NCBI GenBank assembly: GCA_017983795.1
Contig: JAGOAS010000001.1
Span: forward strand, 248,001 to 312,000
Direction of reading: 5' to 3'
DNA from: Piscinibacter sp.
GTDB lineage: Bacteria > Pseudomonadota > Gammaproteobacteria > Burkholderiales > Burkholderiaceae_C
DNA length: 64,000 nucleotides
Both the position numbers and the translations under genes were made by a program. Each line of letters starts with the position of its first letter. The stretch's first letter is position 1. Under the pieces are notes generated by a model that saw nothing but the letters and a program-made list of their open reading frames with translations, did not search any database and was not told the origin of the DNA. This document shows positions 12,956 to 53,457 of the stretch, piece by piece.

Positions 12956-13906
12956 TCAGGTCGCAGGCGAAAGGAGCGATGCCGCGGCCCGGGTGGCCTC
13001 GTCGCACTCGGCGCGCAACCAGGCGGCGAAGCCGGCGGCCGGCTCCTGTGCCGCATGCGGCAGCAGGTAGTAGCGCCAGGCCGGTGCCGCGCCGAGGCCG
13101 AACAGCGGCCGCAGCGCGCCGCTGGCCAGCCAGTGGCGCGCCAGGCTGGGCCGCGCCAGCGCGATGCCCTGGCCGCTGACGGCAGCTTCCAGCGCCAGGC
13201 CCAGATCGACCAGCCGCGTGCCCTGCGCCGGCTCGGGCCAGGCCAGGCCGGCGGCGGCAAACCACGGCGCCCAGGGCTCCAGCGGCGTGCGCAGCAGCGG
13301 CGCGTTGCGCAACTCGGCCGGCTTGCGCAGCGGGCCGAGGCGCTGCAGCAGCGAAGGTGCGGCCATGGGTACGACCTGTTCGTCGAGCAGCGGCACGCCG
13401 CCATGCGCGGCCGGGTCGCCGTGGCGCACCTCGACATCGGCCTCGGTGGCGCCGGCATCGAGGTAGGGGATGGAGAGCACGATCTCCAGCTCGACCTCGG
13501 GATGCGCCGCGGTGTAGCGCTCCAACGCCGGCACGAGGATCTGCCGCGCGAAGGTGGGCGGCGCGCTGACGCGCAGCTTCTCGAGGCGCTGCGCCGTGCG
13601 CCGGTGCAGCGGCACGGCCGCCAGCAGCCCGAGCGCCGCGCCCACCTGGGCGAGGTATTCCTTGCCGGTGGCGGTGAGTGCCAGGGCCTTGGGCCCGCGG
13701 GTGAACAGCGGCGTGCCGAGCAGCTCTTCCAGCGCGGCGATGCGCTTGCCCACCGCGCTGGCGGTGACGGCCAGTTCGTCGGCGGCGCGCTCGAAGCTGC
13801 CCAGGCGCGCTGCTGCCTCGAAGGCGCGCAGGCCGTCGATGGAGGGGAAGCGGACGTCGGGAGAAGCGGCCACGAGCGTGATTGTCGCCAAGGCCGGGGC
13901 CTGCAT
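12956..13906 (-). CDS. LysR-family transcriptional regulator (GcvA-like)
   Basis: A 316-residue LTTR. The winged HTH is FPSIDGLRAFEAAARLGSFE...AVGKRIAALEELLGTPLFTRG in residues about 20-75, followed by the effector domain. The first ATG (13906) overlaps the stop of the dinB C-terminal part (TGATG), so in the ancestral arrangement this gene was translationally coupled to dinB; a later start a few residues in is possible. It precedes lldD on the same strand and may regulate it (inference). Because the 38-kb island interrupts dinB, the original upstream promoter is now about 38 kb away. Confidence 0.9.
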   Translation of the reverse strand: MQAPALATITLVAASPDVRFPSIDGLRAFEAAARLGSFERAADELAVTASAVGKRIAALEELLGTPLFTRGPKALALTATGKEYLAQVGAALGLLAAVPLHRRTAQRLEKLRVSAPPTFARQILVPALERYTAAHPEVELEIVLSIPYLDAGATEADVEVRHGDPAAHGGVPLLDEQVVPMAAPSLLQRLGPLRKPAELRNAPLLRTPLEPWAPWFAAAGLAWPEPAQGTRLVDLGLALEAAVSGQGIALARPSLARHWLASGALRPLFGLGAAPAWRYYLLPHAAQEPAAGFAAWLRAECDEATRAAASLLSPAT

Positions 13907-14753
13907 CAGCCTGGATCACCCGCTGCCGCGGCGAACAGCGGCAACTCGTAGAGCGCGGCCGGCTCCTCGGCCTGCGCCGGCGCCTCGGCGGCCGGCGCGG
14001 CGGGGGCGAGCAGATCGCTCAGGCGCGCCAGCGCGCCGGCGCGCACGCCGAGCAGGCGCAGCCGCCGGCTCAGGTCGACGCGCTTGAGGCATTCACCGGC
14101 GGCGCGCCGGATGGTGCGCGCGTCCATGGTGTGCGAGGGCAGGGTGAGGTCGCGCGTGACCGACTTGAAATCGTCGAAGCGCAGCTTGATGCCGATGGTC
14201 TTGCTGGCGTAGCCCTTGCGCGCCAGGTCGCCGGCGAGCTCGACGCACAGCTCGGTGAAGATGGCCGAGAGCGTGGCGCGGTCGCGCACGGCGTGCAGGT
14301 CGCGCTCGAAGGTGGTCTCGCGGCTGATCGAGACCGGCTCGCTGTGCGTCACCACCTCGCGCTGGTCGCGGCCGTGCGCGACGTCGTGCAGCCAGCGCCC
14401 GTAGTTGGCGCCGAAGTGCTGCACCAGGTGCGCCGGGTCGGCGGCGGCGATGTCGCCCACCGTGTGCAGGCCGAGCCCGGCCAGCTTCTCGCTCGCCTTC
14501 GGTCCGATGCCGTTGACCTTGCGCGCCGCCAGCGGCCAGATGCGCGCCGGGATGTCCTCGAAGCGCAGCAGGGTCAGGCCGTCGGGCTTGTCGAGTTCCG
14601 AGGCCAGCTTGGACAGCAGCTTGTTGGGCGTGATGCCGACCGAGCAGGACAGGCCCGTCGCCTCGCGCACCGCCTGCTTGAGCCGCGCGCCGATGGCGCG
14701 GCCGCCATCGTCCAGCGCACCGGGGATCTCGGTGAGGTCGATGTAGATCTCGT
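13906..14753 (-). pseudogene. dinB: dinB C-terminal part (DNA polymerase IV), severed by the island
   Basis: This is the 3' part of a Y-family polymerase gene. The frame enters from the island end and becomes homologous at YIDLTEIPG. It includes GLSCSVGITPNKLLSKLASELDKPDG, the HhH block KVNGIGPKASEKLAGLG, and the little-finger block REVVTHSEPVSISRETTFERDLHA, and ends with a clamp-binding-like ELPLF near the C-terminus. The catalytic N-terminal part is at 53062-53457. Joined at the shared GATCTCGT, the two give an uninterrupted G-I-D-E-I-Y-I-D-L. This fragment has no palm acidic residues and should be non-functional. Confidence 0.92.
14746..14753. repeat. Left attachment repeat of the island (GATCTCGT)
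   Basis: An 8-bp direct repeat shared with 53062-53069. On one side it continues into chromosomal dinB, on the other into ATGGTGAATGAG, the left island end. The right copy is flanked on its island side by ACCATCT, so the ends carry inverted ATGGT/ACCAT. Joined as a circle they would form ACCATCT-GATCTCGT-ATGGT, a typical core with inverted arms for a tyrosine recombinase. Confidence 0.75.
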
Positions 14754-15067
14754 ATGGTGAATGAGACAGTCTCAAGATAACTGTATGTGTGGCTGTAACT
14801 TGTTGATTTGAAATATTATTCTTGAATGTCTTGCCGAACTTTTAGGGCATACACCGGACGAAACGTCGTCCAAATGGGGCTAGAGCCTTGTCTCTGGCCA
14901 TTTATGCGACATTCTGGGTTCTGAGTCTTGAGTCGGGCTCGGTGGAGCACAGTGTCGCTTGTGCACCTAGCGCGCAATCGCCGATCCTCTTCGCGTGCTC
15001 GGCCACACGTGTTGCCTTCATGAACACGATGGGCCGGTTAGCTAACTTGATATAGACAGGCTGTTCG
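14754..15067. other. Non-coding left end of the island
   Basis: About 310 bp between the left attachment core and the island dinB stop. The first 90 bases are strikingly AT-rich for this genome (around ACTTGTTGATTTGAAATATT). A perfect 11-bp palindrome GAGACAGTCTC lies at 14763-14773 and could be a recombinase or host-factor site. A short minus-strand frame (14902-15135) overlaps the end of the island dinB but has no convincing start or family. I see no gene. Confidence 0.5.
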
Positions 15068-16216
15068 TCAGTCGAGATCGAGGGGCATTTGTTCTGGCGG
15101 CTCGGCTCTGAGTGCATCGGCGCGCTCGAGCGCACTCGCTCGAACGCCGAGTAGTCGAATGGTTCTAGTCAAATCCACCCTCAGCAAGCATTTGCCTGCG
15201 GCACGGCGCAATGCGGCTGCGTCCGATATTGGCTTGGGGAGCGTGAGGTCACGAGTGACGGTCTTGAAGTCGTCGAAGCGAAGCTTGATCCCGATCGTCC
15301 GCCCAACGTACCCCTTTCGCTGCAGGTCGGCGGCAACTTGCTCACAAAGACGGGTAAAGACTTGGCCGAGCTCATCGCGGTCGCGTCTCGCGTGCAGGTT
15401 TCTGTCAAATGTGGTCTCGCGGCTCATCGACACGGGCTCACTGTGCGTCACGACCTCGCGTTCATCGAGGCCGTGCGAGGCTCGGAACAACCAATGCCCG
15501 TAGCTCCGACCGAAGTTCTCCACTAGCCACGCTTCATTGCGTTCGGCGATTTCGCCTATTGTCGTGATTCCTAGCGAAGCCAGCTTTTCACTTGCCTTGG
15601 GGCCGATGCCGTTGATGCGACGCGCGGGCATTGGCCAGATCCTGGAGGGCAGGTCGTCCATCGTGATCGTTGTGATTCCGTTCGGCTTCTGCATGTCCGA
15701 ACACAGCTTGGCGAGGAGCTTGTTAGGAGCAAGTCCAACGGAGCAAGTCAAGCCGGTGGCATCAAACACCGCGGCCCTGAGCTTGCAAGCAATGTCCTTC
15801 GAGCCTGCGTCCAACGACGTGACATCAGCGTAGACCTCGTCGATGCCGATATCCTCGACGACCGGGCTTACCGAACGCACAGCGTCCTTGAAGAGACGTG
15901 AGAACTTTCGATACAGCTCGAAGTTGACTGGCAACAGCACTGCGTCCGGAGCCAGCCGGGCGGCCTTCATCGCAGGCATGCCCGAATGAACGCCCAGCGC
16001 TCGAGCCTCATAGGTCGCAGTTGTCAGCACACCTCGGCCGACATACTCCCGAAGTCGCGAGAACTCCCGTGTTCCGTCCTGGCCGAGGCGCGGTGTATGC
16101 GCGCGGTGACCAGCTACGACCATGGGTTGCCCTCGCAGCTCCGGGTACTGCGACAACTCGCAGGACGCAAAGAAGGCGTCCATGTCGATATGTGCGATGC
16201 GCCGTTCGTTTGCCAC
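15068..16216 (-). CDS. dinB: Island-borne intact DNA polymerase IV (second dinB)
   Basis: A complete 382-residue Y-family polymerase. The palm begins RRIAHIDMDAFFASCE, includes the catalytic GIDEVYADVTSLD with Asp-Glu, CSVGLAPNKLLAKLCSDMQKPN, the HhH block RINGIGPKASEKLASLG, and the little finger EREVVTHSEPVSMSRETTFD; it ends QMPLDLD, a plausible beta-clamp-binding tail. It is clearly homologous to, but diverged from, the interrupted chromosomal copy, with a less extreme G+C bias. I prefer GTG 16216, which places the start about as far from HIDMDAF as in the chromosomal gene; a TTG at 16240 would add eight residues. It is the first gene inside the island and reads toward the broken copy and lysR. 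Confidence 0.93.
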   Translation of the reverse strand: MANERRIAHIDMDAFFASCELSQYPELRGQPMVVAGHRAHTPRLGQDGTREFSRLREYVGRGVLTTATYEARALGVHSGMPAMKAARLAPDAVLLPVNFELYRKFSRLFKDAVRSVSPVVEDIGIDEVYADVTSLDAGSKDIACKLRAAVFDATGLTCSVGLAPNKLLAKLCSDMQKPNGITTITMDDLPSRIWPMPARRINGIGPKASEKLASLGITTIGEIAERNEAWLVENFGRSYGHWLFRASHGLDEREVVTHSEPVSMSRETTFDRNLHARRDRDELGQVFTRLCEQVAADLQRKGYVGRTIGIKLRFDDFKTVTRDLTLPKPISDAAALRRAAGKCLLRVDLTRTIRLLGVRASALERADALRAEPPEQMPLDLD

Positions 16217-16300
16217 AGTCTCTCGGCCCTCGTCCGCCAAATATTACTCGGCCGTCCGCCTTCCTCCGCTGCGCCACAAGATCGGCTTCAGAGGTAGCCT

Positions 16301-16832: not shown

Positions 16833-16955
16833 ACCGACTCGGGTACATCCTCAGCGCTGAACTCGGTCGGGCAGTAGCATTCTTTGGGGAATGAGCGTGC
16901 TGCATGTTCCGTGGCTTGAATCACAAAGTCTGTATATCGATCGGCTGAACTAGCG

Positions 16956-18563: not shown

Positions 18564-18649
18564 ACTGGCCAGAGTCCATCCGGGAGGCTCTTGAAGCCGC
18601 CTTATTCTGAACTGAATCGTCGTTCCTCCCTTGGTATGAAGCTGCGGCG

Positions 18650-19160
18650 GCTTGCAGCTAGGTGGGTGCGCTTGACGTTGATCGCCCAGCCGTCGATCCG
18701 CAAGCGGCTGTGCAGCATCCGGTAGCCGTGGCGGCGGTTCTGGCCGACGAGCTCCGTCAGGCGCTCGCGCAACCGGCCGTTGCCGTCATCGCGAGGTTGG
18801 TAGCGCAGCGTTCTGGCGCTCATGCCCACCAGCCTCAGAGCGTGGCGTTCGCTCAAGTCCCGAACCTGCCGCTGCCGCACCACTTCGCGACGCGCCGCCA
18901 CGGCCACTACTTTCCCTTGAGCACCTCACGCACCGCGTCGATCTCGAGCATCGAGTTGGCTAGCAGCTTCTTGAGCTTCGTGTTCTCGGCCTCCAGCGCC
19001 TTCAGGCGCTGGGCATCCGACACGTTCATGCCGCCGAACTTGGCCTTCCAGGCGTAGTAGCTCGGCTCGCTGAAGCCATGCTTCCTGCGTAGCTCCTTGA
19101 CCCGCAGCCCGGCATTGGCCTCACGCGGAAAGCCAATGATCTGTTTGACCCAGCACGTAG
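18650..19160 (-). mobile_element. IS3-family (IS407-like) remnant, orfA and orfB both truncated
   Basis: The frame ending at 18907 carries orfA from KQIIGFPREANAGLRVKELR through SEPSYYAWKAKFGGM to EIDAVREVLKGK, but lacks the normal N-terminal start, being fused to unrelated upstream sequence. The next frame (18602-18907) carries the first about 80 residues of orfB (ARREVVRQ, ERHALRLVGMSARTLRYQPR, HGYRMLHSRLRIDGW) and then loses homology. No DDE catalytic domain remains, so the element cannot move itself. It sits directly downstream of the secreted dockerin-like gene. Confidence 0.85.
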
Positions 19161-19245
19161 CGCTTTCATGGATCGCAAAGTGCCGTGGTTGGCCTTGTGT
19201 CACGGCTCTTGTGCACAATGGGCCGGGATTCGCTGTCACGAGGCG

Positions 19246-21384: not shown

Positions 21385-24360
21385 CTATGACCTTGCGGAA
21401 GTGATCCGTCTGCTCTGCAATGCTCGATCTAGCAGCTCAGAAGGCCTTCTGAAATAGTCTGCGACTTTCGGCTCATTCACAAATGCTTCATGAGCCAAGT
21501 CAGCAAGTTCCATTGCACGCTTGCGCTTTCCTGCCTTCAAAGCGCACAAGCCTGCCACTCCCCGGACGCGCGCAATGTCTGGGTCGTACTCATACCACTG
21601 CTCCGCGACGTCGGACAAGTGCGCCTCGAGCAACGCCAGCCCGGCCAGCGAACGTCCAAGTTCGCACAGGGCCTGTCCTTGAACTGATCGATAGTCGGTG
21701 AAGCGATACGGCCCGAGCATCTCCACCTTTGGCAGCAGCTCAAGCGCGCCAGATGGATCTCCCTCTTGGAGCCTAATGCGAGCCAGCGCGATCAAGAAGG
21801 TGTGCTGACCAAACTCCGCATAGGCGGGCACACCTCGAAATGGTTCAATCTTCGGGGCGTTCTCCAGAATCTCGCGTGCCTCGCCATAGCGACCTTGCTC
21901 ACTCAGCCCTGCAGCGAGCTCAGCGTAGTACCACGCCGTCTCGGGATCTGCGGGGCCATACACCAACTTCGCCAGCTCTAGTGCCTCGCGATCTCGGGAC
22001 ACAGCCTCTCTGTAGTTTCCCAGGTACCTCGACGTGTAACCGAGAGCAGAGGCAAGATTCAGCTGTAGCCAGGGATCGTTGCTCAGTGCCCCAAGATTGA
22101 CTCGGGCACGAGTGAGCAGGTCAGCGCCCTCCCGAATTCTCCCGGACCATACTGTGACTTGCCCGAGGTACAGGTCGAAGAGGGCCCCGATTGAAGGCGG
22201 CAATCCGCCAGGATCAACGATAGTTTCTCTGGCCCTCCTCACAACGCGGCGCGCTTCATCCAGAGGAATTTCATAGGTTTCTCCTAGTACTACTGCTGCT
22301 CGTGCCTCAGCAAGTGCCGCTCGAATGTCTCCCGGCCCATTCAGAACTCGCATTGCCTTGAGTGCCAGGGCGAGTTGGCTTTTCGCGTCTTCGCCACGAC
22401 GGCGCCGAGCAAGTTCCTCAGTGAAGTCAAGGCGAATGTCAATCGCTGTCCGCGAGAGCTCTCCTTCGGTGATCGTGGCGATGTCGATGGCTCGTTTGTA
22501 GTGTTCAGCAGCTTCGTCGAATCGATTTCGTCGACTCAGCCAAGCGGCGCGCAGAGCGGCCGATTCGACGCGAGTTGATGCCACATGTGGACCCGGATTT
22601 CCAAGACTGACATCGACTTGATCTAGTTGTTGAAGGCACTCTGGATACTTGGCTTGAAGCAGCAGTACACGCGCAAGAGTCAAGCGCGCGGACGTCGAGA
22701 CGGCGGAAGAGTCCTTCGCTGCCGCTAACGCGCCTCTCGCCTCCAGCTCTGATTCAGCAAAGTGACCGGTTCTCGCCAGTGCGCGCGCAAGAAGTATGCG
22801 TGCTTTCGCCTGATCGTCAGCTTGAGCGCCTGTCTTGATGAGGGCATGGAGGTGTTTCCGACCAAACTCTGTCGCTTGCACCGAGCTTCCCATGTTGGCA
22901 AAGATGTCTGCGACGACGCCAAACAACTCCGCCTGCAGTTGGGGTTGCTGGTCGAACTTTGCTTCGATCAACCGGGCTCCTCTCAGCAGAATCAGTTCCG
23001 CTGGTAGCTCGCGTAGCTTTCCGTTGTCGTGTGCATCTCCCGCATTGATCCTGAAGACGTCGACAACGAACTCCTTCACTGCATTCGCACGTTCAGCGGC
23101 CTCGGTCGCACGAACTGCTTCATCGCTTGCGCGCCGAGCCTGGATGAGTGAAACGCCTGCGCCCACAATGACTGCGAGTAGAGTTGCGGCCCCTGCGGCG
23201 AACCCGAACCTATGTCGGAACGCTGCCTTGCGAAGTCTGTAGAGCAAGCTATCAGGGTGTGCCCTGATCGCATCTCCCGCTAGGTACCTCTCGATGTCCT
23301 GAGCAAGTGCATCCGCGGTCGCATAACGCCGGGATGGGTCGGGTTCCAGCGCCATGCAAACGATCGAGTTGATTTCGCCCTGCAGAACCCTCTTGGTTGC
23401 CCTATTCAGTGCTTGACCACTTGGCAGCACGGCCGTGCTTCCATATTCGGCGTTGCTCTCGGGAGCGTGCATGAACCGCGATGCCGCTCGTGGGGGCTGC
23501 CCAGTCAGCAACTCGCGCAGCAGGATGCCCAGAGAGTAGACATCCGACGCCACAGTGACTGGCTCGCCTCTGATCTGCTCTGGAGACGCGTAGTGCGGAG
23601 TGAACACTCGTCCATGTTCCTGGGTCACCCCTCCAGGATCGACCTGGGCTTGATCCAGTAGCTTGGCGATTCCGAAGTCGAGTAGATGTGCCTGACCGTC
23701 AGGTGTCACTAGGATGTTCGACGGCTTGAGATCACGATGGACGACCAATCGTCCATGGGCGTAGGCCACTGCTCGCGCAACCTGCGCGAATAGCCGCAGC
23801 TTATCCGTGATGCCAGGCCCATTCTCTTTGCACCATTCGTCGATGGCCTTGCCGTGTTGTATGTACTCAAGCGCAATGTAGGGGCGCCCCGTCGCATCGA
23901 TCCCAGCGTCGTACAGCCTCGCGATGTTCGGATGCTCCAACAGAGCTCCAATCTCCCGTTCTCGGGCAACGCGTTCAGCCAGGCCTGCGTTCGATCTCAA
24001 CCTCGGAAGCTTCAGCGCGACTTGGCGCTTGAAGGCGCCGTCCGCCCGCTCGGCTAGCCATACGGTTCCCATGCCACCCTGCCCAATGGCAGAAAGCATT
24101 CGATACGGGCCGACAAGATCGCCAGCGCTTATCGTCCACGCTTCTTCGTTCTCTTCAAACTTGGGCAGCGTGGAAAGACGACCTTGGGTTCCGGGGGCTG
24201 TGTGCTCAATAAGTAGCTCGCGCAAGATCGGCTCTAGATGCTTGTCAGCTGGTCCCAGCGCGATAAACCAGCCTTCTTTCTGCGCAGGCGCTAGCGACAT
24301 GACCTCGTCGAGAAGGCGACTCAAGGCAACGAGGTCAGCGGCACCTAGAGCCATCGTCAA
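21385..24360 (-). CDS. Transmembrane Ser/Thr protein kinase with TPR region
   Basis: A 991-residue Hanks-type kinase. The kinase domain occupies about 86-365: G-loop GQGGMGTVW (93-101), invariant Lys in VALKLP (K117), HRDLKPSN (H208-R-D210), DFG (228-230), YASPEQIRGE and SDVYSLGILL. One membrane helix follows at about 393-415 (FAAGAATLLAVIVGAGVSLI), then about 570 residues of helical TPR-like repeats outside or alongside the membrane. The N-terminal about 75 residues resemble the short regulatory segment common in this kinase type. It starts 14 bp after the sigma factor gene, so they are co-transcribed. ECF factors paired with such kinases can be activated by phosphorylation (known for EcfP/PknT of Vibrio parahaemolyticus), which is the likely logic here. 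Confidence 0.93.
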   Translation of the reverse strand: MTMALGAADLVALSRLLDEVMSLAPAQKEGWFIALGPADKHLEPILRELLIEHTAPGTQGRLSTLPKFEENEEAWTISAGDLVGPYRMLSAIGQGGMGTVWLAERADGAFKRQVALKLPRLRSNAGLAERVAREREIGALLEHPNIARLYDAGIDATGRPYIALEYIQHGKAIDEWCKENGPGITDKLRLFAQVARAVAYAHGRLVVHRDLKPSNILVTPDGQAHLLDFGIAKLLDQAQVDPGGVTQEHGRVFTPHYASPEQIRGEPVTVASDVYSLGILLRELLTGQPPRAASRFMHAPESNAEYGSTAVLPSGQALNRATKRVLQGEINSIVCMALEPDPSRRYATADALAQDIERYLAGDAIRAHPDSLLYRLRKAAFRHRFGFAAGAATLLAVIVGAGVSLIQARRASDEAVRATEAAERANAVKEFVVDVFRINAGDAHDNGKLRELPAELILLRGARLIEAKFDQQPQLQAELFGVVADIFANMGSSVQATEFGRKHLHALIKTGAQADDQAKARILLARALARTGHFAESELEARGALAAAKDSSAVSTSARLTLARVLLLQAKYPECLQQLDQVDVSLGNPGPHVASTRVESAALRAAWLSRRNRFDEAAEHYKRAIDIATITEGELSRTAIDIRLDFTEELARRRRGEDAKSQLALALKAMRVLNGPGDIRAALAEARAAVVLGETYEIPLDEARRVVRRARETIVDPGGLPPSIGALFDLYLGQVTVWSGRIREGADLLTRARVNLGALSNDPWLQLNLASALGYTSRYLGNYREAVSRDREALELAKLVYGPADPETAWYYAELAAGLSEQGRYGEAREILENAPKIEPFRGVPAYAEFGQHTFLIALARIRLQEGDPSGALELLPKVEMLGPYRFTDYRSVQGQALCELGRSLAGLALLEAHLSDVAEQWYEYDPDIARVRGVAGLCALKAGKRKRAMELADLAHEAFVNEPKVADYFRRPSELLDRALQSRRITSARS

Positions 24361-24374
24361 TGCCTCTTGGCGCT

Positions 24375-24929
24375 CTACTGCTTGAGTGCCGCAAGCAGCA
24401 GCAGCCTCGCCTTTTCCCAGTCACGTCGAACGGTACGCTCCGTGACGTCCAGCGCCTCCGCGATCTCGGTCTCGGTGTAGCCGCCGAAGTAGCGCATCTC
24501 CACGACCTGCGCGAGGCGCGGCTCCGCTTGCTCAAGTCTCAGCAGAGCCTCGTGCACGTCCAGCACCTCCTTCTCTCCCGCCGGCAGCTCCGCCGAGATC
24601 TGTGTGTCCAGCGTCAGCTCAGTCAGGTCGCCGCCGCGGCGTGCTGCCTGGCGCTCGCGCACTGAGTCGATGATCACCGAGCGCATCACGCGCGAGGCAT
24701 AGGCAAAGAAGGCGCGCCGATCGTCGCTGCGCAGCCGGCCTCCCTGCAGGAACCGGAGGTAGGACTCGTGCACCAGGGCCGTGGTATCCAGGTAGGTGTT
24801 CCTGCCACCGTCACGCAGCCTCGAACGAGCCAGCTTGCGCAGTTCATCGTAGGCTGCCGCAAACAGCCGCTCGCGCGCCGTGTCATCACCCGCCGCCAGC
24901 TGCCTGATGAGTTCCGTGATGTCCGACAT
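24375..24929 (-). CDS. ECF-like RNA polymerase sigma factor
   Basis: A 184-residue sigma factor of the ECF-like class often paired with Ser/Thr kinases. Region 2 includes ERLFAAAYDELRKLARSRLR, TTALVHESYLRFLQ and DRRAFFAYASRVMRSVIIDS; region 4 is VVEMRYFGGYTETEIAEALD, then RTVRRDWEKARLLL. ATG 24929 is used because the upstream extension is Arg-rich and not part of the fold. No anti-sigma factor gene is adjacent; instead the kinase follows directly, suggesting control by phosphorylation. Likely targets are the downstream secreted protein and perhaps the divergent operon at 25465. Confidence 0.92.
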   Translation of the reverse strand: MSDITELIRQLAAGDDTARERLFAAAYDELRKLARSRLRDGGRNTYLDTTALVHESYLRFLQGGRLRSDDRRAFFAYASRVMRSVIIDSVRERQAARRGGDLTELTLDTQISAELPAGEKEVLDVHEALLRLEQAEPRLAQVVEMRYFGGYTETEIAEALDVTERTVRRDWEKARLLLLAALKQ

Positions 24930-25052
24930 GACCCCCGCCACCACTCGCCTTGCCGTATTGCAGCCCATGCGGCGGCGGCGTGCAAGTGGCGCGTCCGCGG
25001 AGGCTGACGACATAGGGGGACTGTCCACACGGCACACGACGCGGGAGGCCTC

Positions 25053-30670: not shown

Positions 30671-30686
30671 TGGAGCCTGTCGGAAC

Positions 30687-41813: not shown

Positions 41814-41828
41814 CGGTTCGGGTTCTCG

Positions 41829-44322: not shown

Positions 44323-46518
44323 CTAGCTCGGGGTAGGCCCGTCATGGCGGAGTTGGGCCAGCCTCTTAGGCAAGCCCACGCGTCGCCGGTCGGCAGCCTT
44401 CTCTCGAGCAACCGTCTGCGCCATCGCAGCGGCAGACCCAAGCAGGATCACTTCGGACTGGGCGCGTGTCAGGGCGGTATAGATCAAACTCCGGTCGACC
44501 GATGAACTGCGCGTGCTCGGCAAACACACGATGACACGATGCCATTGCGACCCTTGTGCCTTGTGGACTGTCAGCGCATAGGCCAACTCGAGGCTGTCCA
44601 GGAACGAAGCGTCGAAGGTGCGGGTTTGGCCGTCGTCCCATTCGATAGCTCCGAGTGCTTCTCCGTCCTTCTTCAGGCTTACGATCCGTCCAATCGAACC
44701 GTTCTGCAACCCAAGGTCCCAATGGTTGTCTGTGCAGATCACAAGGTCGCCTTCGCGAAGGCCTGAAGCCTCCCAGCAGTCGAACTCCTGGTTCCAGACT
44801 CGAAGCTCCTCGCGGTCGGTGGACAACTTCGTTTGCACGGCTTCGTTGATTCTCTTGGCCAACGCTCGGGTGGCGCACAGCACAACAGTTTCGGCGCTGC
44901 CGGTCAAGTAGAGTTCGGTAGCCACATCGGCCAGCTCATTGTCGGAGGTCTCGAGGAGCCGCACCTTGCCTGTCTCGCTGAGCCGCGGCAACACCCCGGC
45001 CTTAATGCTGTCGGCCACCGCAGCGATCTCGCTGCCAAAGCGCTGAGGTGCCTTCAACTCCACGTGTGGAACGATGCCGTCGGTCAAGCACTGGAGGACG
45101 AGCCCCGGTCCGATCGGCGGCAACTGGTGTGGATCGCCGATCAAAGCGATCTTGACCCTGTCGTCAACACCTCGCGCGAGGGCGGAAAAGGACAGCAGGT
45201 CCACCATGCTCGCCTCATCGATCAGGATTGCCTGTTCCTTCAGGTCCTGCTGTCCCTCGGGCTCCTCGTTGAGCTTCTTGATGAACGAGGCCAACGTCTT
45301 TGCCGGCCGCCCTGTGCTCTCCTGCATTCTTTTGACGGCCTTGCCGGCAAGCGCAAGCTGAATTACGTCGTAGCCCTGGGCCTCGAGCACGTCGCACACC
45401 ACCGTGAGGACGGTAGTCTTGCCACAGCCGGCTCCGCCGGTGACTACGCTGAAGTGATGCTCGGCGATCAGATGCACCGCGGCCCTCTGTTCATCACTCA
45501 GCGGCCACTTGCCTCTTTGCGTTTCGAATGCACGGATGATCGCTCGTACGTCGCACGCAGGACTGACCATGCCTCGCCGCGCATCGATGCAGTCGACGAT
45601 TCGGTTCTCAAGGATGCTCGCACCGAGGCTATAGGCGTTGTCTTGCGAGTCGAACAAGACGCGGCCCGTTCGCTCGCACAGTTTGAGTGCACTTTCGATC
45701 ATGTCGCTCATGCGCGGCTCATTCTTCAGAAGCCGCTTGATGCTGCTCACAAGATCCTTGCGGGGTACGAAGGTATGGCCGAGAGCGAACTGTTGGTACA
45801 CAGACTCTTCGACAGCCGCCGCCAGCCTGCGCTCGTCGAGTGGCTGGACGCCGAGAGCCGACGTGGCGAGTCGGTCGACCTCATCCCATCCTGCAGCGAA
45901 GCTGAGCAGCCGATAAGGGTTCTCGTTGATCTTCTCGTGCGCCTCAGCGCCAAAGTAGCCGAGGATTCTTCTTCCGATCGCGAGCCCAATCTCGTGGCTC
46001 TGTAGCCATTGGAGCGTCTTGCTCAGGCCCTCCTCGCGCCAACCTTCGATCAGGACCTTCGCCTTCGCGGGCGCAATGACATCGACCAGTGCCGTGTAGT
46101 CCTCAGCGTCGAGCACCTCGACGAGGCCCTCGCGAAACGTCTCCCACAGCTTCTGTGCCGTCAGGGGGCCAATGCCCTCGAACCTGTCGTTTCGCGCGAT
46201 GTATTCGACGATGTGCGCGCCCGATGGCAGCTGAAGGGCTGCTCCGCCGGGTCTCACCTCGACGTGATCCTCCGCCATCTCGAAGCCACTGGCGTTAACG
46301 AAGGTCCTGATGCCGACTTCGCCGGAGATCCGCCACCACTGGCCCTTGCGAACCTTGACGCCGACCGCGCCGGCATGGACTCGCGCAACGATGTCTCGGT
46401 TCGCATCGAGAATCTCGCCGGACTCGCTGATGCGCTGCCCTCGAAAGATCGCGCCGCGCCGATCTTGCGCACGGACTGACAGCACACGAACAAGCATTGT
46501 CTCAGTTGCTTTGCTCAC
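44323..46518 (-). CDS. RecD2-like superfamily 1 DNA helicase
   Basis: A 731-residue helicase. An N-terminal OB-like and helix-hairpin-helix region (DRFEGIGPLTAQKLWETFRE) precedes the SF1 core: Walker A GGAGCGKTT (about 363-371), motif II LIDEASMVD, GDPHQLPPIGPG, and a UvrD-like C-terminal core with ALTVHKAQGSQW. It is shorter than full RecD2 but has its order of domains; no RecB or RecC is present. Its start overlaps the stop of the small coiled-coil protein (ATGA), so it belongs to the mobility operon rather than to hsdRMS. It may process DNA during excision or integration, or protect incoming island DNA (inference). Confidence 0.88.
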   Translation of the reverse strand: MSKATETMLVRVLSVRAQDRRGAIFRGQRISESGEILDANRDIVARVHAGAVGVKVRKGQWWRISGEVGIRTFVNASGFEMAEDHVEVRPGGAALQLPSGAHIVEYIARNDRFEGIGPLTAQKLWETFREGLVEVLDAEDYTALVDVIAPAKAKVLIEGWREEGLSKTLQWLQSHEIGLAIGRRILGYFGAEAHEKINENPYRLLSFAAGWDEVDRLATSALGVQPLDERRLAAAVEESVYQQFALGHTFVPRKDLVSSIKRLLKNEPRMSDMIESALKLCERTGRVLFDSQDNAYSLGASILENRIVDCIDARRGMVSPACDVRAIIRAFETQRGKWPLSDEQRAAVHLIAEHHFSVVTGGAGCGKTTVLTVVCDVLEAQGYDVIQLALAGKAVKRMQESTGRPAKTLASFIKKLNEEPEGQQDLKEQAILIDEASMVDLLSFSALARGVDDRVKIALIGDPHQLPPIGPGLVLQCLTDGIVPHVELKAPQRFGSEIAAVADSIKAGVLPRLSETGKVRLLETSDNELADVATELYLTGSAETVVLCATRALAKRINEAVQTKLSTDREELRVWNQEFDCWEASGLREGDLVICTDNHWDLGLQNGSIGRIVSLKKDGEALGAIEWDDGQTRTFDASFLDSLELAYALTVHKAQGSQWHRVIVCLPSTRSSSVDRSLIYTALTRAQSEVILLGSAAAMAQTVAREKAADRRRVGLPKRLAQLRHDGPTPS

Positions 46519-47045
46519 CAGGGCAGCCTTCCCGTCGTACGAAGGACTTCTTCCATGCCATCGAACCGCTCAAGACGCTTCCGAAGCTCTCGGTTCTCGG
46601 TCTTGAGCAACTCGTTCTCCTCCTGGAGTTGCTTGAACCTAGCTTCGCGGACGGCATCACGCCGGGGCTCCAGCCGCACCACTTCAACCGGATCGGCGAC
46701 GGCAGGCTTGAGGACTCCGTCTTCGAGCAACTTCCTCTTGAGCGCCGGTAGGTGAATTTCCGCGATCGCGGTGTTTGTGTACAACACGCCTCGCTGAATG
46801 CCACACTCACTTGCGACGAGGCTGAGGTTCAAGTCGCCGTTGCGCAAGTACGGCTTGAAGTCCTCCACCTGGTTCTTCCAAGCGAGAAACATCTCAACGT
46901 GCGCGTGTCCGTCTTGTATGCCGCTGGTGCCCTTGCCCAAGATGCTGCTCCCGTCAGCTCGAACAACAATGCGGGGCTCCGCCCCGTAGCCCCGCGCTCG
47001 CCGCGAGGCAGGGGGTGTAGCCATGAATGGCAACCCTCCCTGCAT
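46515..47045 (-). CDS. Coiled-coil DNA-binding-like protein of the mobility operon
   Basis: A 176-residue protein: a possible HTH region (NLSLVASECGIQRGVLYTNT) and a C-terminal leucine-zipper-like coil (EARFKQLQEENELLKTENRE, LRKRLERF). ATG 47024 is an alternative start. It is coupled to the RecD2-like gene by a 4-bp overlap and lies about 120 bp after the next small gene. Comparable small proteins accompany the recombinases of Tn554 (TnpC) and the gamma-mobile-trio elements (GmtX); which family it belongs to needs a profile search. Confidence 0.65.
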   Translation of the reverse strand: MQGGLPFMATPPASRRARGYGAEPRIVVRADGSSILGKGTSGIQDGHAHVEMFLAWKNQVEDFKPYLRNGDLNLSLVASECGIQRGVLYTNTAIAEIHLPALKRKLLEDGVLKPAVADPVEVVRLEPRRDAVREARFKQLQEENELLKTENRELRKRLERFDGMEEVLRTTGRLPW

Positions 47046-47167: not shown

Positions 47168-47632
47168 TCATTGCTCTCGTGCTTTTGCCTTTAATTCAAC
47201 CAACTGATGTAGAGGAGTCCTGCAATCCAGGAGTAGCGCAAACTCCTCATACTGCTTTGCGCGCGTCGCCTCGAGTTGTTCGCTCAGTTCCATAATCGTG
47301 GCTTCCAGCTCGGTGATCCGACGCTGCAGAAACGCCCGTGATTGGGTGGCGTACTTGGGCGCGGCTTGCGTCTTCAATCGCTTCGCAACACCTCCAGCTG
47401 CCGCGTAGGCGTTCGCGATCAGTTTGACCCCGCCCCACGATTTTTGGGACATGATGTTGCGGTGAAATCGCCTGCCGAATTTCTTCTCGACATGCAGCAC
47501 GATGTTGTCCCATGTTACGGGCACACCGGCCAATGGCATGTGTCCGATCATGATGGCTATCCGCTTTGCCAGTTCCTCGGTAAGTTCCTCAGGACGGCCA
47601 GGGCCGGACTTGGCTTCAACCTTTTGCGTCAT
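47168..47632 (-). CDS. Small accessory protein of the recombinase operon (TnpC-like)
   Basis: A 154-residue protein with a compact N-terminal domain (VTWDNIVLHVEKKFGRRFHR) and a C-terminal coiled coil (LQRRITELEATIMELSEQLE). Its start overlaps the stop of the large recombinase gene, indicating coupling. The size, position after the last recombinase and coil resemble Tn554 TnpC. Likely a DNA-binding or orientation-control factor for recombination (inference). Confidence 0.7.
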   Translation of the reverse strand: MTQKVEAKSGPGRPEELTEELAKRIAIMIGHMPLAGVPVTWDNIVLHVEKKFGRRFHRNIMSQKSWGGVKLIANAYAAAGGVAKRLKTQAAPKYATQSRAFLQRRITELEATIMELSEQLEATRAKQYEEFALLLDCRTPLHQLVELKAKAREQ

Positions 47633-50090
47633 CTTCCTCGCCTTCGTCGTGCCCGCCTGTCAGCAGGTGACCTTGATCCTCGAGACCGAGAGGCCGCGGA
47701 GCGAACTCTGGATGGGTCTCGTGCGCCTTCTCGATCAGCGCCGCCATCGATGCTCGACTGCCGAACTGCGCTTCGATAGCTCTCTCGTGGCCCGGTGCCG
47801 CATGGCGTGAAGGGTCGTGATACTTGATCAGTGCTCCGCTGTGAACCTTCGAAGAATCGAGCTGTTCGACGATTCCCCTGGCAACGAACGCATCGTGCAG
47901 CTTCTTGCGGAAGGCGATATCCTGAATTTGATCTTTGAGCTCGTGAAAGCGGTCGAGCATCTCCTTGCACATTTGCGTTGCGTCCAAGCCCTTGCCAACC
48001 AATGTCAGGAGATGAAGGTCGAACGCATCCTGGTCGTCCGCAAGTTCATAGTTGCGAGCCGTGATGAGTGCCTGCAGTTGGTTGATGATGCTCTGCTGCG
48101 CCAGGTCGTCGGTCCTACGCCACTGTTCGTTTGAGGGCAGGTGGCCTTTGACGACCACCTGCTCGTTGCAACCGCTCCCGCACATCCGATACGAACGGCA
48201 CGGCGCGACATGATGCTGGTGGAGGCAGACGCCGAACCGTGTCGGGTACAGGATGATGATCTGATTGCTGGTGCGGGCTACTGGACGGTTCTCAGTCGCC
48301 TGGAAGACAGCCTCCATGCTGGTGACCGCGATACCGGCATCATTTGCAACGACGACTTCCGACTCGAGTCCGTACTGGGCCTCGAGGCTCTCCAACTGCC
48401 TTAGCCCTGCGGTCATGTCAGCCAGTTCCTCGACCTCAGGCATGGCCGACTGGCTGGCTTTCACGTCGGCAGGATTTACGTCGTAGCTGTCCAACTGGCT
48501 CAGCTTGAGTCTGCGCGCCCACTTGTTGAGCAAGACATCGGGCAGCCGTTCCTTGGCCTTGAGCGCCATCGTTGTTAGCCAGCGCCGCGGGTCGTGGGTC
48601 TCCAGGTAGGCATGGATGACCCGGCCGTCCTCGACCATCTGAATGTCGAGCTTCTCAAAGACTGTCGGTTGAGTAGTCGCCTTGCGGGCAGCAGTTCTCT
48701 TAAGGCGCAGAAGGTGGCTGTGGTATTTGACCGAATCGGGCAGCCAGGGCGCGGCGCGCCTGTCGAACAGGACCAGCATATTCGACAACTTTCCCTCGTA
48801 TCGAATTTGCGGTGTTACCTGACGAACTGCTTGAAGGCGCGACTTCACGCGGGATAGCATCAGCGGCTGTAGCTCATCCCATGCTATGACCTGAATGTGT
48901 TTGGCCAGGGCAACACCACCATCGGCCCGGATTGGGTTGGGGTTAGGAATCTTCCGGACCTTGCCGGCCTTATGAAACTCTTTCCATAGGTCGTTGATAC
49001 TCGCAGTGATGCCTTCCGGAGGAGAGGCCGAGGTCAGATTGACGATCTGCCACAGCGCAGCCCTCGAGATGTCGACGCCCCGAAGATGCTGCAGTTCCGG
49101 AGGCAGGAAGAGAGAGTGAGGGTTCTGCTCGTACCAACTCACTAGCTTGCGTGATCGCGCGCCAAGTTCGAGCAGCCGCTTCCAGCAGTGATCGACGAGG
49201 TCGATCATGAAGTTCAGAATGGGCTTGGCACCCCAATCTGCTCCCTTGCTTCCTTTGATGAGGAGGAGCTGGTGAACGCTGTGCAGCACGTCCCGTTCGC
49301 GATGGGCCGAGCGTGTCGCGTAGTCCTCGATCGTGAACCGGTCATCGATTCCAAGAGTCAGCGGCTCGTTAATTCGAGACGGCGCGCACATCGTGATGTT
49401 GGCAATTGCCAGAGAAGCACAGTCCTCGGTGCTCAGTCGTCTGTCACCTCTGAGCATCGCCCTGGTTGCGTCCGACAGCGCCTCGATCTTCCGGTCCAAG
49501 GTGGCGCCCTTGGCCAGCTTGAAGTTGGCCCTGTTGTTGTTGTATCGCTCCAGCAAGCTTGTCTTGGTGTCTGGACTAACCGTCCAACCGATACGATCGA
49601 TGACACCCTTGCGGCCCATGTCATCGAGTTGTCGGCCGAGGGTCTGCAGGCGCGCGAGATCGGTTCCGGCAGACCGGTCGGTTGCGTGCTTCGCGGCTGC
49701 TTCCTCGACAGAGCAAATGTCGAGACGACGAAGCGCCGCCAAGGGCACATCGAGGGCGGCAAGTAGTAGCCATGCACGCAGAACCTTCCACCCGATCTTC
49801 ACCTTGTTTGTCAGGGCTACTTCTGCCATCAGACAGCGAGCTGCCAAACAGTAGGCTGGATCCTTGCCAGCAAAGGCTGCGACCGTCGTTGCGAATGACA
49901 AGTCTTCCATCTCCGCGCCGTGGGTCGTCCGGAGTGGCCAGGATGCCGAAGAGAAATCGATGCCCGGCCACTTCTTCGACATGCGCCTGCCGCAGTCCTC
50001 TGCCCATGCGAGCAGGGCCGTCTCTCGTCGGCTGAGTGATAGATCGACGGCCTCCTGCATGGGTCGTGCTCTAGTTGGGCGCCATTCCAC
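47616..50090 (-). CDS. Third tyrosine recombinase, large (GmtZ/TnpB-like)
   Basis: An 824-residue protein. A catalytic-type domain includes ETHDPRRWLTTMALKA (the HxxR box) and KLSQLDSYDVN with the probable nucleophilic Tyr, in the pattern of large recombinases where the Tyr is in a YDH-like motif. The C-terminal region has a Cys/His cluster (CLHQHHVAPC, MCGSGC) likely to bind zinc. Start is GTG 50090, overlapping the previous gene by 20 bases; ATG 50060, just after that gene, is an alternative. Works with the two upstream recombinases to integrate and excise the island. Confidence 0.82.
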   Translation of the reverse strand: MEWRPTRARPMQEAVDLSLSRRETALLAWAEDCGRRMSKKWPGIDFSSASWPLRTTHGAEMEDLSFATTVAAFAGKDPAYCLAARCLMAEVALTNKVKIGWKVLRAWLLLAALDVPLAALRRLDICSVEEAAAKHATDRSAGTDLARLQTLGRQLDDMGRKGVIDRIGWTVSPDTKTSLLERYNNNRANFKLAKGATLDRKIEALSDATRAMLRGDRRLSTEDCASLAIANITMCAPSRINEPLTLGIDDRFTIEDYATRSAHRERDVLHSVHQLLLIKGSKGADWGAKPILNFMIDLVDHCWKRLLELGARSRKLVSWYEQNPHSLFLPPELQHLRGVDISRAALWQIVNLTSASPPEGITASINDLWKEFHKAGKVRKIPNPNPIRADGGVALAKHIQVIAWDELQPLMLSRVKSRLQAVRQVTPQIRYEGKLSNMLVLFDRRAAPWLPDSVKYHSHLLRLKRTAARKATTQPTVFEKLDIQMVEDGRVIHAYLETHDPRRWLTTMALKAKERLPDVLLNKWARRLKLSQLDSYDVNPADVKASQSAMPEVEELADMTAGLRQLESLEAQYGLESEVVVANDAGIAVTSMEAVFQATENRPVARTSNQIIILYPTRFGVCLHQHHVAPCRSYRMCGSGCNEQVVVKGHLPSNEQWRRTDDLAQQSIINQLQALITARNYELADDQDAFDLHLLTLVGKGLDATQMCKEMLDRFHELKDQIQDIAFRKKLHDAFVARGIVEQLDSSKVHSGALIKYHDPSRHAAPGHERAIEAQFGSRASMAALIEKAHETHPEFAPRPLGLEDQGHLLTGGHDEGEEDDAKG

Positions 50091-51603
50091 TCATTGCGCG
50101 TCGCTTGGCGTCACAGACGATGATCACAACTCGGATGCAATTCCGAATGTGTTTATAGCGTCGCGCTTCGGTCGCCATTGCCAGTCCGGCGTCATCGGCG
50201 AACTTGATCTCTCGCTCGACAACGTCCAGATTTATTGAGTGATCGGCGTCGTACGCTGGCTTGAAATGCCGGCACTCATAGCAGGCTATCGGAGCGTAAT
50301 TGCACTGAACCTCGCGGCCGCATCGCGCGGTGGTTTCCCGTTTCCCAGTTTCATCGTCCTCGCTGACGATGCGCTGCGCCGGGGGTATGGGGTCGTTCTT
50401 GCTGCAGAACTCGTCGAACACTGGGTAGTGTTCTACGAAGGCGGGCTCTAGGACATCGCTCAGCTTATCCATCAATCCGTCAAAGAAGAGGTCCACGTAG
50501 ACGCGGGCCGTCTTGTCGTTGCCATGCTTGAGGACAGCGGCAATAGTTGTCGCGGAGCAACCGATCAAGGCTAACTGGGTGGCTACCGTATGGCGCAAGA
50601 CGTTGAACGTCAGCAACCGGTTTGTGAGATCCCGGATCGGGTCAAGGTATGCTTTTCTGCATGAGTTCGAGTCCTTCAGCGCGCCCTTGTGCTCCCTCGC
50701 ATACTTCGACCTGGCGAGGTCGATGGCAGGGAAGAGCGGCAGCAGTCCTAGTTCGCCGGAAAGTGCCATGTGCCCGATGCGCTCGATCACGGCTTGGCGC
50801 TGGGCGGCCAGGAGGTCTCCAACGTTGGGATGAAGCCTGATCGATGCCTTGGGCATCTCGCCATGAACGCCGGTCTTGGGTATGGGCAGGTCGAGAAAGT
50901 AGGTTACTTGCCCTGTCTCAGGGTTCTTGTCTGAACGGAGGTCCTTCAGTTGTATGCTGGCGTAGCTCTTTGGTCTCGCGAAGGTTTGCATCGCCAGATG
51001 AAGGAAGCTGTAGCGGCCCAGATCCAGCTTTCCCGACTCGTACGCTTCCTCGGTGACATTCAGTATGTGAACCATCGAGGCGCGCGTTAACGCTGAGGCG
51101 AGTATGCGATCGATCTTCTTTCCGTTGAATCCTCGCTTGTCCTTCCTGACCGGGAAGTCTTCCGCATGCAGATCCTTGTCGAAGAGTGCCGGGTTGTGCC
51201 TATTGGCAGCGAAGAGGCGCCGCAACGTCTGAAGGTACGCGGGTGAAACGCTGGCCTTGATCGTTTCGAGCCCGATCAGGAATGCGCTGTTGATGCGCGA
51301 TACCTTGCCAACGATGATCTGCTTCTCGTGGCAGATCCGCAGCAGGTTGCGGATGCCGGTGACCTCGTAGTCGATCGTGGTCAATGCAACCGTGTGTCGC
51401 CTCTGAAGTGCTACCTCCTTTAGTGCTAGGAGAAATGTCTCGGCATAGCCGTCGCGAAGCGAGGCGAGCTCGAAGTCTTTGATCGCCTGCTGCCGGGTGT
51501 CTTGGCCGTTACCGACCCACTCGCTCATTGTCCAGAGCAAGGGATCGGCCTCGTCCCACTCGGCAAGAGCAGTCCCAATCTCCTGACGAACTCGCGCGGT
51601 CAT
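50071..51603 (-). CDS. Second tyrosine recombinase
   Basis: A 510-residue integrase with core catalytic boxes NVLRHTVATQLALIGCSATT and VLKHGNDKTARVYVDL (His and nucleophilic Tyr), and a C-terminal Cys cluster (CGREVQCNYAPIACYECRHF) that may bind zinc. I chose ATG 51603 because it overlaps the first recombinase stop as ATGA; the longer frame to 51726 runs inside that gene. Second in the operon of three. Confidence 0.9.
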   Translation of the reverse strand: MTARVRQEIGTALAEWDEADPLLWTMSEWVGNGQDTRQQAIKDFELASLRDGYAETFLLALKEVALQRRHTVALTTIDYEVTGIRNLLRICHEKQIIVGKVSRINSAFLIGLETIKASVSPAYLQTLRRLFAANRHNPALFDKDLHAEDFPVRKDKRGFNGKKIDRILASALTRASMVHILNVTEEAYESGKLDLGRYSFLHLAMQTFARPKSYASIQLKDLRSDKNPETGQVTYFLDLPIPKTGVHGEMPKASIRLHPNVGDLLAAQRQAVIERIGHMALSGELGLLPLFPAIDLARSKYAREHKGALKDSNSCRKAYLDPIRDLTNRLLTFNVLRHTVATQLALIGCSATTIAAVLKHGNDKTARVYVDLFFDGLMDKLSDVLEPAFVEHYPVFDEFCSKNDPIPPAQRIVSEDDETGKRETTARCGREVQCNYAPIACYECRHFKPAYDADHSINLDVVEREIKFADDAGLAMATEARRYKHIRNCIRVVIIVCDAKRRAMSGMAPN

Positions 51604-52925
51604 GAGTTCATCTTCGCCTTCCTCGCCTGTTGCAACGACTCGTAGAAAGAGTTCGTCGTCGTGCTTGCGGCATCGCTGATTGCCCGCAATGCGTATCGAT
51701 TGGGCATGGTGCTGGCGTCGGTCCACCCAAACCGATTCCTCATCTGATCCTTGACGTCGGGTTCATCCTGCTTCTCGGCGTAGAACAGTGAGGCCGAGGA
51801 GTGACGAAGGAGATACGCAGAAAGGTCGTACCTCGATTGCGTCGTGTAGGGATCCGATGACGGAACGGCCAGCAGACCCAGCCGAGTCAGGCCTTGACGG
51901 GCTCGCCTGAAGACCGCAGATATTGTTCCTCGATCGGCGATCGGACCGCCGTGTTCAGCGAGGAGGAGAAAGCCCAAGCTCTTGTTCTTGATTGTCTTCT
52001 CGAGCAACGCCTCACGCTCTCCTTCTATGTAGTCCTGTATTGCTTCCGACGTGCAGGGCGTAAGCTGGATCGTAATGTTCGAGTTGTACGGCTGCTTCGT
52101 GCTTCTCGCGCCTTTCTGCTTGGGCGTGCCGGTGGTGATTCGCCGCTTCCGCTTTGCCGTGTGATCTTTCAAGATCAATGAGGCTTTGGTGGGACCGCCT
52201 GCCCATGAGAAATCGGTGCGGGCGATGTTGCCTATCGCACCGGGTCTGACGCTGTCGGCGGCAAGAAGAACAATCGCCCGATCGCGCATTAGCGTTGGGC
52301 TGGGCTTTCCGCTTGCAGAGAGAAACACCTTCTCCGGATCTAGGAAGACTGTTCGATAGATCTCCAGAAAGACGGACTTTGGCGCCGACCTGATCGTGAA
52401 TGGGTTTGCCGCCTGTGTACCTCGGATCGCGTTCTTGAGTTCTTCGACGCAATCGTCGTACTGCCGACGCAAGGCTTCGCTCAGCGTCGATCCGAGTGGG
52501 AGGCGCGGACCGAGCACCTTCTTGTGATACCAGTGCAGCCAATCCGCGATCTGCCGCAGACGCTTGGCCGCGGTGTTTGGTTGGTTGGCATCCTTCGCGT
52601 CCTCAGGCAAAAGGTCACTCGTTGCGGTCGCGACTCGCCTAACCATCTGAGGCGACATGAGCTCGATCTCGTCGACGGGGCGATAGACAAGCTGCTTGAG
52701 CGCGGCCTTCTCGCCTTCACGAAGGCACTCACCTTTGAGAGCTCGTTCGCCGAGGTTGATTGCGAACGCATCTAGCAGCGCGATGAAAACGCGCAACGCC
52801 GCGGCCACGGACTCGTGGGTATGCGGGTTGTTGTGTTGCAGGTTGAGATAAAGGCTGGCAGGTACGTTCACTATCCCCGCGGCGTCCTCAAGCAGCGTCT
52901 TCGACTTGGCGGGGACGAGTCTCAT
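51600..52925 (-). CDS. First tyrosine recombinase (GmtY-like)
   Basis: A 441-residue integrase. An N-terminal SAM-like region is followed by a catalytic domain with the first Arg in AADSVRPGAIGN, box II AYLLRHSSAS (R374-H375), RNRFGWTDASTMPNRYAL with W401 in place of the second His, and Y411 as the nucleophile. The pattern RFGW...MP..YA resembles the first recombinase of gamma-mobile-trio elements (from memory). It heads the operon, directly downstream of the operator-like repeat, and lies about 140 bp from the right attachment site. Confidence 0.9.
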   Translation of the reverse strand: MRLVPAKSKTLLEDAAGIVNVPASLYLNLQHNNPHTHESVAAALRVFIALLDAFAINLGERALKGECLREGEKAALKQLVYRPVDEIELMSPQMVRRVATATSDLLPEDAKDANQPNTAAKRLRQIADWLHWYHKKVLGPRLPLGSTLSEALRRQYDDCVEELKNAIRGTQAANPFTIRSAPKSVFLEIYRTVFLDPEKVFLSASGKPSPTLMRDRAIVLLAADSVRPGAIGNIARTDFSWAGGPTKASLILKDHTAKRKRRITTGTPKQKGARSTKQPYNSNITIQLTPCTSEAIQDYIEGEREALLEKTIKNKSLGFLLLAEHGGPIADRGTISAVFRRARQGLTRLGLLAVPSSDPYTTQSRYDLSAYLLRHSSASLFYAEKQDEPDVKDQMRNRFGWTDASTMPNRYALRAISDAASTTTNSFYESLQQARKAKMNS

Positions 52926-52938
52926 TAGGATGCAAAAG

Positions 52939-52966
52939 TCTACAGTGTTCTACAACATTGTAGACC
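52939..52966. promoter_or_regulatory. Operator-like repeat cluster in front of the recombinase operon
   Basis: GTCTACA (52939-52945) and TGTAGAC (52960-52966) are perfect outer inverted arms. Inside, CTACAA-CA-TTGTAG (52951-52964) is another perfect palindrome. The CTACA half-sites at 52941 and 52951 are ten bases apart, one helical turn. It lies 14 bp upstream of the first recombinase start codon, where a repressor or the recombinase itself could block transcription. Confidence 0.65.
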
Positions 52967-53004
52967 CGCGCAAAAATTGGGCAAGGCTCTTGTCGGTGTG
53001 GCCG

Positions 53005-53036
53005 GCACTGCACGAGGAGAGTTTGAAAAACAGTGC
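53005..53036. repeat. Inverted repeat near the island right end
   Basis: GCACTG at 53005-53010 and CAGTGC at 53031-53036, separated by 20 bases, about 25 bp inside the right attachment core. Possibly an arm-type recombinase site. It could be chance. Confidence 0.35.
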
Positions 53037-53046
53037 AGATGGGGGC

Positions 53047-53457
53047 TCACGAAAACCATCTGATCTCGTCGATGCCGCGGTCTTCGATCTTGGGCGCGAT
53101 CTCGCGCACCGCGGCCTTGAACATCCGCGAGTAGCGCCGGTATTCGTCGAAGTCGACCGGCAGCAGGATGGCGTCGGGCGCGAGCTGCGCCGCCTTCATC
53201 GTGCCCATGGCCGAGAACACGCCCAGCGCGCGCGCTTCGTAGGTGCTGGTGGTCAGCACGCCACGGCCGGTGTAGTCGCGCAGGCGGAAGAAGCGGCGCG
53301 TGCCGTCGCCCAGGGTTTCGGGCTGATGGCGGCGGCCGCCGCCGATCACCACGGGCAGGCCGCGCAGTTCCGGGTAGCGCAGCAATTCGACGGACGCGTA
53401 GAACGCGTCCATGTCGAGGTGGGCAATCAGGCGCGGCGCGTCGCCAGGGCTGTACAT
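53047..53457 (-). pseudogene. dinB: dinB N-terminal part (DNA polymerase IV), severed by the island
   Basis: The 5' part of the chromosomal polymerase gene from ATG 53457: RLIAHLDMDAFYASVELLRY, RDYTGRGVLTTSTYEARALG, and up to KIEDRGIDEI, with the palm Asp and the Asp-Glu pair. It then runs into island sequence and ends after four foreign residues (136 codons). The rest of the gene is at 13906-14753. Without the remaining palm, thumb and little finger it cannot polymerise DNA. Gene order flgA-flgM-flgN-dinB-lysR-lldD was probably the ancestral one. Confidence 0.92.
53062..53069. repeat. Right attachment repeat of the island (GATCTCGT)
   Basis: Second copy of the 8-bp core found at 14746-14753. 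On its left is island sequence ending CTCACGAAAACCATCT, on its right chromosomal dinB codons for Gly-Ile-Asp-Glu (reverse strand). Confidence 0.75.

Follow-up and report, generated by a model that had tools for sequence, protein, structure and literature searches.

The window (the whole stretch of 64,000 nucleotides that was analysed) contains a dinB gene that is interrupted by an island of 38 kb (Table 1). The 5' part of this resident dinB runs through the codons for Gly-Ile-Asp-Glu and the 3' part lies beyond the opposite end of the island; neither half contains an internal stop, and both were found on the minus strand exactly where an earlier note on this DNA had placed them. The reading frame of the 5' part, counted from its first ATG, comprises 174 aa and terminates a few codons into the island. 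The GC content is 0.605 in the island and 0.70 in the flanks. At its right end the island carries an operon resembling ginABCD, and at the end opposite this operon, 314 bp inside the left core, it carries a full-length dinB of its own. The earlier note had missed both the operon and the second dinB, which change the meaning of the broken target. Because the window is free of N and lies inside a single contig of 459,688 bp, an assembly artefact is an unlikely explanation for the split gene; the genome is a 4.24-Mb draft rated 99.73% complete.

Table 1. Features of the interrupted dinB locus and of the island, in window coordinates.
Feature	Position	Strand	Details
Resident dinB, 3' part	13906..14753	-	PF00817 positions 95-148; 80.2-89.1% aa identity to the six intact genus orthologues
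Left copy of the 8-bp core GATCTCGT	14746..14753	+	flank mapping
AT-rich left island end	14754..14880		begins ATGGT; GC 0.417 over 127 bp
Island full-length dinB	15068..16240	-	PF00817 149.6 bits, PF11799 89.5 bits
Ser/Thr kinase with TPRs and ECF sigma factor	21385..25037	-	cargo
AAA ATPase, PADLOC candidate PDC-S06	35918..38545	-	E 2.8e-206
Type I restriction-modification (hsdS, hsdM, hsdR), EcoAI-type	38797..44228	-	cargo
RecD2-like helicase	44323..46518	-	also in the Paraburkholderia element, 62% identity
VPA1267-like protein	46515..47045	-	directly after ginD, as in Paraburkholderia; NF040697 75.8 bits (cut-off 90); 53% to L022
ginD-like small protein	47168..47632	-	42-45% to four relatives
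ginC-like protein	47616..50090	-	40-48% to GinC of four relatives; E 3e-23 to G609 GinC
ginB-like tyrosine recombinase	50071..51726	-	PF00589 28.1 bits (cut-off 27.1); NF041502 below its cut-off
ginA-like recombinase	51600..52925	-	starts 136 nt from right core; relatives 41-50%
Resident dinB, 5' part	53062..53457	-	PF00817 positions 1-99; 87.8-96.7% aa identity to the six intact genus orthologues
Right copy of the 8-bp core GATCTCGT	53062..53069	+	flank mapping
SOS (LexA) box CTGT-N8-ACAG	53450..53465		over the resident dinB start codon; 8/8 positions

To locate the insertion point, we used the uninterrupted genes of related genomes. A DinB search of eight genomes of the genus gave matches in seven, the genome under study among them; the eighth genome is 84% complete. 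In all six relatives of the same genus that have dinB (loci L008-L013), the gene is contiguous. Each flank of the window was compared separately, unjoined, with these six loci by blastn, once with queries ending at the core and once with queries extending 300 bases into the island. The two flanks met in 6/6 intact loci with an overlap of exactly 8 bp, GATCTCGT. With the 300-base extension, the alignments stopped at 14753 and started at 53062 in every locus, and not one base beyond the core was common to the window and the relatives on either side. Among 35 DinB proteins, the best six matches of both halves were the same six genus orthologues, so that the halves do not fit different DinB subfamilies. 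These results bear out the claim of the earlier note that a 38-kb island lies inside a single dinB, and support a site-specific insertion as read from the flanks. Furthermore, the divergence of the halves from the orthologues was no greater than that among the intact orthologues themselves. Since the halves are undecayed, the insertion looks recent.

The starts of the two core copies are separated by 38,316 bp. On the coding strand of dinB the core reads ACGAGATC and extends from position 2 of the Asp codon to position 3 of the Ile codon. The exact 8-nt core was found in 15 of 33 dinB loci, that is, in all six of the genus and in 9 of 27 from the rest of the order; these 27 were the loci most like the island DinB rather than a random sample, and a 34th locus was unmatched. 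These counts do not bear out the earlier expectation that almost any relative would have the site: GIDE is general as a protein motif, but synonymous codons disrupt the 8-nt core in the other loci. The location in the active site would be incidental, the recombinase reading DNA and not protein, and the conserved motif would offer a dependable target among close relatives, not everywhere. The insertion had also been called an unusual choice of site for being in an active-site codon rather than at a tRNA 3' end. This judgement is weakened, because insertions in protein genes have been described for GInts, in rulB for ILEs and in recA for the RME (all discussed below); a site outside tRNA genes is thus normal for the GInt class. 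The corresponding 8 bases in the island dinB differ from the core by one base, which is too little to claim that this copy is immune to insertion of its own element.

The four genes at the right end of the island run in one direction, from ginA at 52925 to the end of ginD at 47168 on the minus strand, and code for proteins of 441, 551, 824 and 154 aa. Relatives of GinA were found in four plasmid records and one Zoogloea MAG contig. Four of these regions were compared (L022-L025; one of two Salmonella records was left out), and all four gin genes were present in the same order in each of them at 39–50% identity. The operon was also found, more distantly related and in the same order, in genome G609. 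GinB and GinC found counterparts both in G609 and in Caballeronia pNK82, and GinA had no match in either. In the window, neither GinA nor GinC matched a Pfam integrase model; Phage_integrase was matched by two of the five GinA family members. Of the G609 proteins, GinA matched PF00589 at E 1.5e-19 and GinC weakly (E 0.016). Profile comparison linked neither GinA nor GinC to GinB, searches of the PDB with the GinA and GinC profiles returned chance-level matches only, and the fold models of the two proteins were too poor to use (mean pLDDT 38.2 and 36.2, respectively). The GinC-like protein is probably a degenerate recombinase; GinC has been described as being without the first catalytic arginine. 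A CAPSRINE box in GinC (47616-50090) was invariant in all five members of the subfamily, and His499, Arg502, Trp524 and Tyr536 were kept in 5/5 as well, these being candidate catalytic residues at most. The ginABCD operon of the same subfamily is also carried by conjugative IncHI2A plasmids of Enterobacter and Salmonella (L023 19983-25765 and L024 20001-25757).

Just inside each end of the island stands ATGGT, adjoining the core on the left and separated from it by 2 nt on the right. In the relatives, whose ends were not mapped independently, visual inspection of the gin-side end gave ATGGT in L022 and L023, ATGAT in L024 and ATGGC in L025. Between ginA and the right core, at 52938-52965, lies a near-perfect palindrome (GTCTACAGTGTT / AACATTGTAGAC) that overlaps a promoter-like site and is a possible operator of the gin operon.

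The name GInt stands for "Genomic Island with three Integrases" (Bardaji 2017, PMC5385486). As described there, GInts target protein-coding genes, for example those for an ABC transporter, ssb and ribonucleotide reductase, and their cargo is very varied. A further trait of the class is excision as a circle, for which all four gin genes are needed. The present island resembles them in having ginABCD at one end and an AT-rich opposite end, in a cargo of tens of kb that includes restriction-modification, and in being inserted at or within a protein gene, flanked by short direct repeats, with an empty site in relatives. It is unlike the described GInts in its position in mid-dinB, in carrying its own copy of the target gene and in its 8-bp repeat, which is perfect with nothing shared beyond it, whereas GInts are described with imperfect direct repeats of 10–17 nt; the word dinB is absent from the main text of the GInt paper (PMC5385486). 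From the gene order and the ends, the island is most likely a GInt. Assignment to a sister class instead (SE, RIT or Tn554-like) appears improbable. Multi-recombinase operons are common to all of these classes, and the failure of Pfam to recognise GinA and GinC here would fit such an assignment. In the strand-biased circularizing elements (SEs), too, the multi-recombinase operon includes a degenerate recombinase, along with a small helper protein of the coiled-coil type (PMC10214605). However, a large degenerate protein in third place and a small protein last is the GInt order, whereas SEs have the order intA-tfp-intB-srap, and SEs differ in host range, being reported in their description only from Gammaproteobacteria (PMC10214605); both distinctions are by description.

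Behind ginD, the VPA1267-like gene and the RecD2-like helicase gene follow here as they do in the Paraburkholderia caribensis element. The pair had no match in the Zoogloea, Enterobacter and Salmonella stretches compared, and may represent an extended core of one GInt branch. The defence cargo (35918-44228) consists of the type I restriction-modification genes and the adjoining candidate PDC-S06 ATPase. At 18602-19239, two short ORFs resemble an IS3-type transposase by eye, the second being shortened.

The island dinB codes for 390 aa from a TTG, with an alternative GTG start possible at 16216. Its product has the catalytic motifs DMD at residue 19 and GIDE at residue 132, and aligns with solved Pol IV structures in the PDB across residues 12-371. 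PF00817 was matched at four places in the genome: the island dinB, the two halves of the resident gene and one ImuB-like protein, which we read by eye as ImuB. Apart from the island DinB, no intact DinB was found in the genome. A tree of 35 DinB proteins placed the island DinB in a clade with the DinB of genome G1096, with 100/100 support, and grouping it with the six genus DinBs was rejected (p-AU 1.3e-5, the group having been chosen after earlier looks at the data). G1096 belongs to another family of the order. On this phylogeny, the island dinB was most simply acquired by horizontal transfer from another lineage of the order. We had considered an origin from a mobile lineage and dropped it: the nearest clade is present in 9 of 22 genomes of the G1096 genus, two of them single-contig, and the dinB of G1096 adjoins housekeeping genes, as judged by eye. 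Among phage records, 32 had a match to the island DinB at E 1e-20, all below 60% identity.

The presence of two dinB genes close together also brings to mind homologous recombination between a plasmid-borne and the chromosomal dinB. This would give chimeric full-length copies, whereas no chimeric junction was seen and the break in the resident gene is accompanied by a duplication of 8 bp. Moreover, both pieces match the orthologues of the genus, and the tree puts the island copy outside their clade. We therefore consider such an exchange highly improbable as the origin of the arrangement.

The SOS box at the start of the resident dinB is the only such match in the window, and a perfect SOS box was found at the dinB start in 7/7 cases (the host and the six genus orthologues). 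Upstream of the island dinB, and at all eight loci of the G1096 genus that were examined, there was no SOS box (0/9), the best match being 6 of 8 positions. When 2,000 random stretches of 260 bp were drawn from the whole window, the real SOS box included, the best score was 6 in 1,034 of them, 7 in 80 and 8 in 10, so the best match ahead of the island dinB is at background level. A scan of the same upstream region for sigma-70-like promoters gave none, a result that is little informative because shuffled sequences average 0.5. Since the box is missing on the island copy and present on the resident gene and six orthologues, Pol IV probably leaves LexA control: the island dinB, if expressed, would probably be outside it, and a damage-induced polymerase has probably been replaced by one outside SOS control.

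The plan of the island has a counterpart in the recA mobile element (RME) of Vibrio cholerae S24, which measures 32.8 kb (Rapa 2014, PMC4405046). That element, too, lies inside an SOS gene and has a complete, divergent copy of the target at one end and an integrase at the opposite one. In the view of its authors, the element's own recA copy spares the host; they also report that excision restores recA (PMC4405046). In the RME, target and carried gene are recA, whereas here both are dinB; the RME copy keeps its SOS box, whereas the island dinB reaches 6 of 8 positions at best; and the recombinases of the RME are described as a phage integrase and XerS, not as ginABCD (PMC4405046). Going by its genes, the island resembles the RME in plan and is not a member of the RME type.

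A second comparison is with the ILEs of Pseudomonas, which lie in the Y-family gene rulB of pWW0 (Rhodes 2014, PMC4542609). Like the present island, ILEs have three recombinases and a small gene, and a Y-family polymerase gene as their target; the distance from the first recombinase to the insertion point is 118–119 nt in ILEs and 136 nt here. We rejected the idea that both use the same codons, since the ILE site is the Asp codon of the rulB NSDGC motif, about 40 codons into the gene (PMC4542609), and the site here is at the GIDE codons. The ILE report describes a 160-aa rulB-like ORF in one ILE, and no full-length replacement polymerase is seen in its account (PMC4542609). UV tolerance was not reduced by an ILE in rulB, perhaps via an alternative rulB frame (PMC4542609).

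Taken together, we favour the reading that the island is a GInt that was inserted by its GinABCD proteins and whose carried dinB replaces the broken one, and we hold it with moderate confidence. An attachment site on a circular form of the element would be recombined with the 8-bp core in dinB, a reaction that, judging from their family, GinABCD would catalyse. The polymerase gene would thereby be cut at the Asp-Glu codons, its 5' stub reading on into the island for a few codons, and the carried DinB, if expressed and functional, would supply Pol IV activity. The island has broken its target and likely supplies a substitute; as the island copy is the only intact DinB and likely provides Pol IV, the insertion would cost the host little. 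The same insertion would move Pol IV out of LexA control and may leave the host dependent on the island.

Alternatively, the island may be an ordinary GInt with dinB as incidental cargo, in which case the match between the broken and the carried gene is a coincidence. We give this account distinctly less weight, though it deserves serious consideration. The cargo of GInts is very varied (PMC5385486), and plasmids often carry DinB-like genes, with matches in 434 plasmid records at E 1e-30. The related elements are, as far as seen, without DinB. The whole Paraburkholderia record gave no DinB match, and the Zoogloea contig has no DinB-like gene in the 16 kb seen. On the two IncHI2A plasmids, a single distant Y-family match apiece (29%) lies beyond ginA, at 44 and 72 kb from it and in the direction opposite to the cargo. 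Carriage of dinB is therefore not general to this GInt branch, which leaves room for a coincidence of target and cargo. Against it, the carried gene is complete, belongs to the same family as the target and is the only intact DinB found, and the same layout has been reported for recA (PMC4405046).

Further cases were sought in other genomes. Among 399 genomes drawn from the family, GinA matched the genome under study and one other marginally (E 9e-4), and among 369 genomes of the class, GinC matched the genome under study and G609. A search for the element in genome contigs yielded one locus from 172 candidate stretches, and in viral contigs none of 35 and none of 26. We also scanned 399 genomes of the order for split dinB genes; 312 had a match, and among the matches listed, contig-end partials were not followed. 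Two candidates, G1141 and G1112, proved to have uninterrupted genes with extra residues. A second island targeting dinB was not found in these searches, and one example is known. Among the openly available papers listed in literature searches, we met with no report of an island in dinB; the phrase 'within the dinB gene' occurs in two of them, and another has a passage on a DinB-family gene inside an ICE.

If the carried dinB does replace the broken one, this is a second case, after recA, in which an island disrupts an SOS gene while bringing a likely substitute, in a different gene and apparently with a different recombinase class and in a different bacterial group. It is tempting, but speculative and on present evidence rather doubtful, to see a recurrent strategy in which recombinase elements are directed at SOS genes, such as recA in Vibrio and dinB in the present genome, and bring a functional copy of foreign origin. 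If it is recurrent, such an island would exchange a repair protein of its host for another whose properties differ, in the present case a Pol IV no longer under LexA; the host would depend on the island for Pol IV, and damage-induced mutation would be altered. If the substitute works, islands of this kind could pass repair polymerases from one lineage to another, alter the control of the damage response at a single stroke and become difficult for the host to shed.
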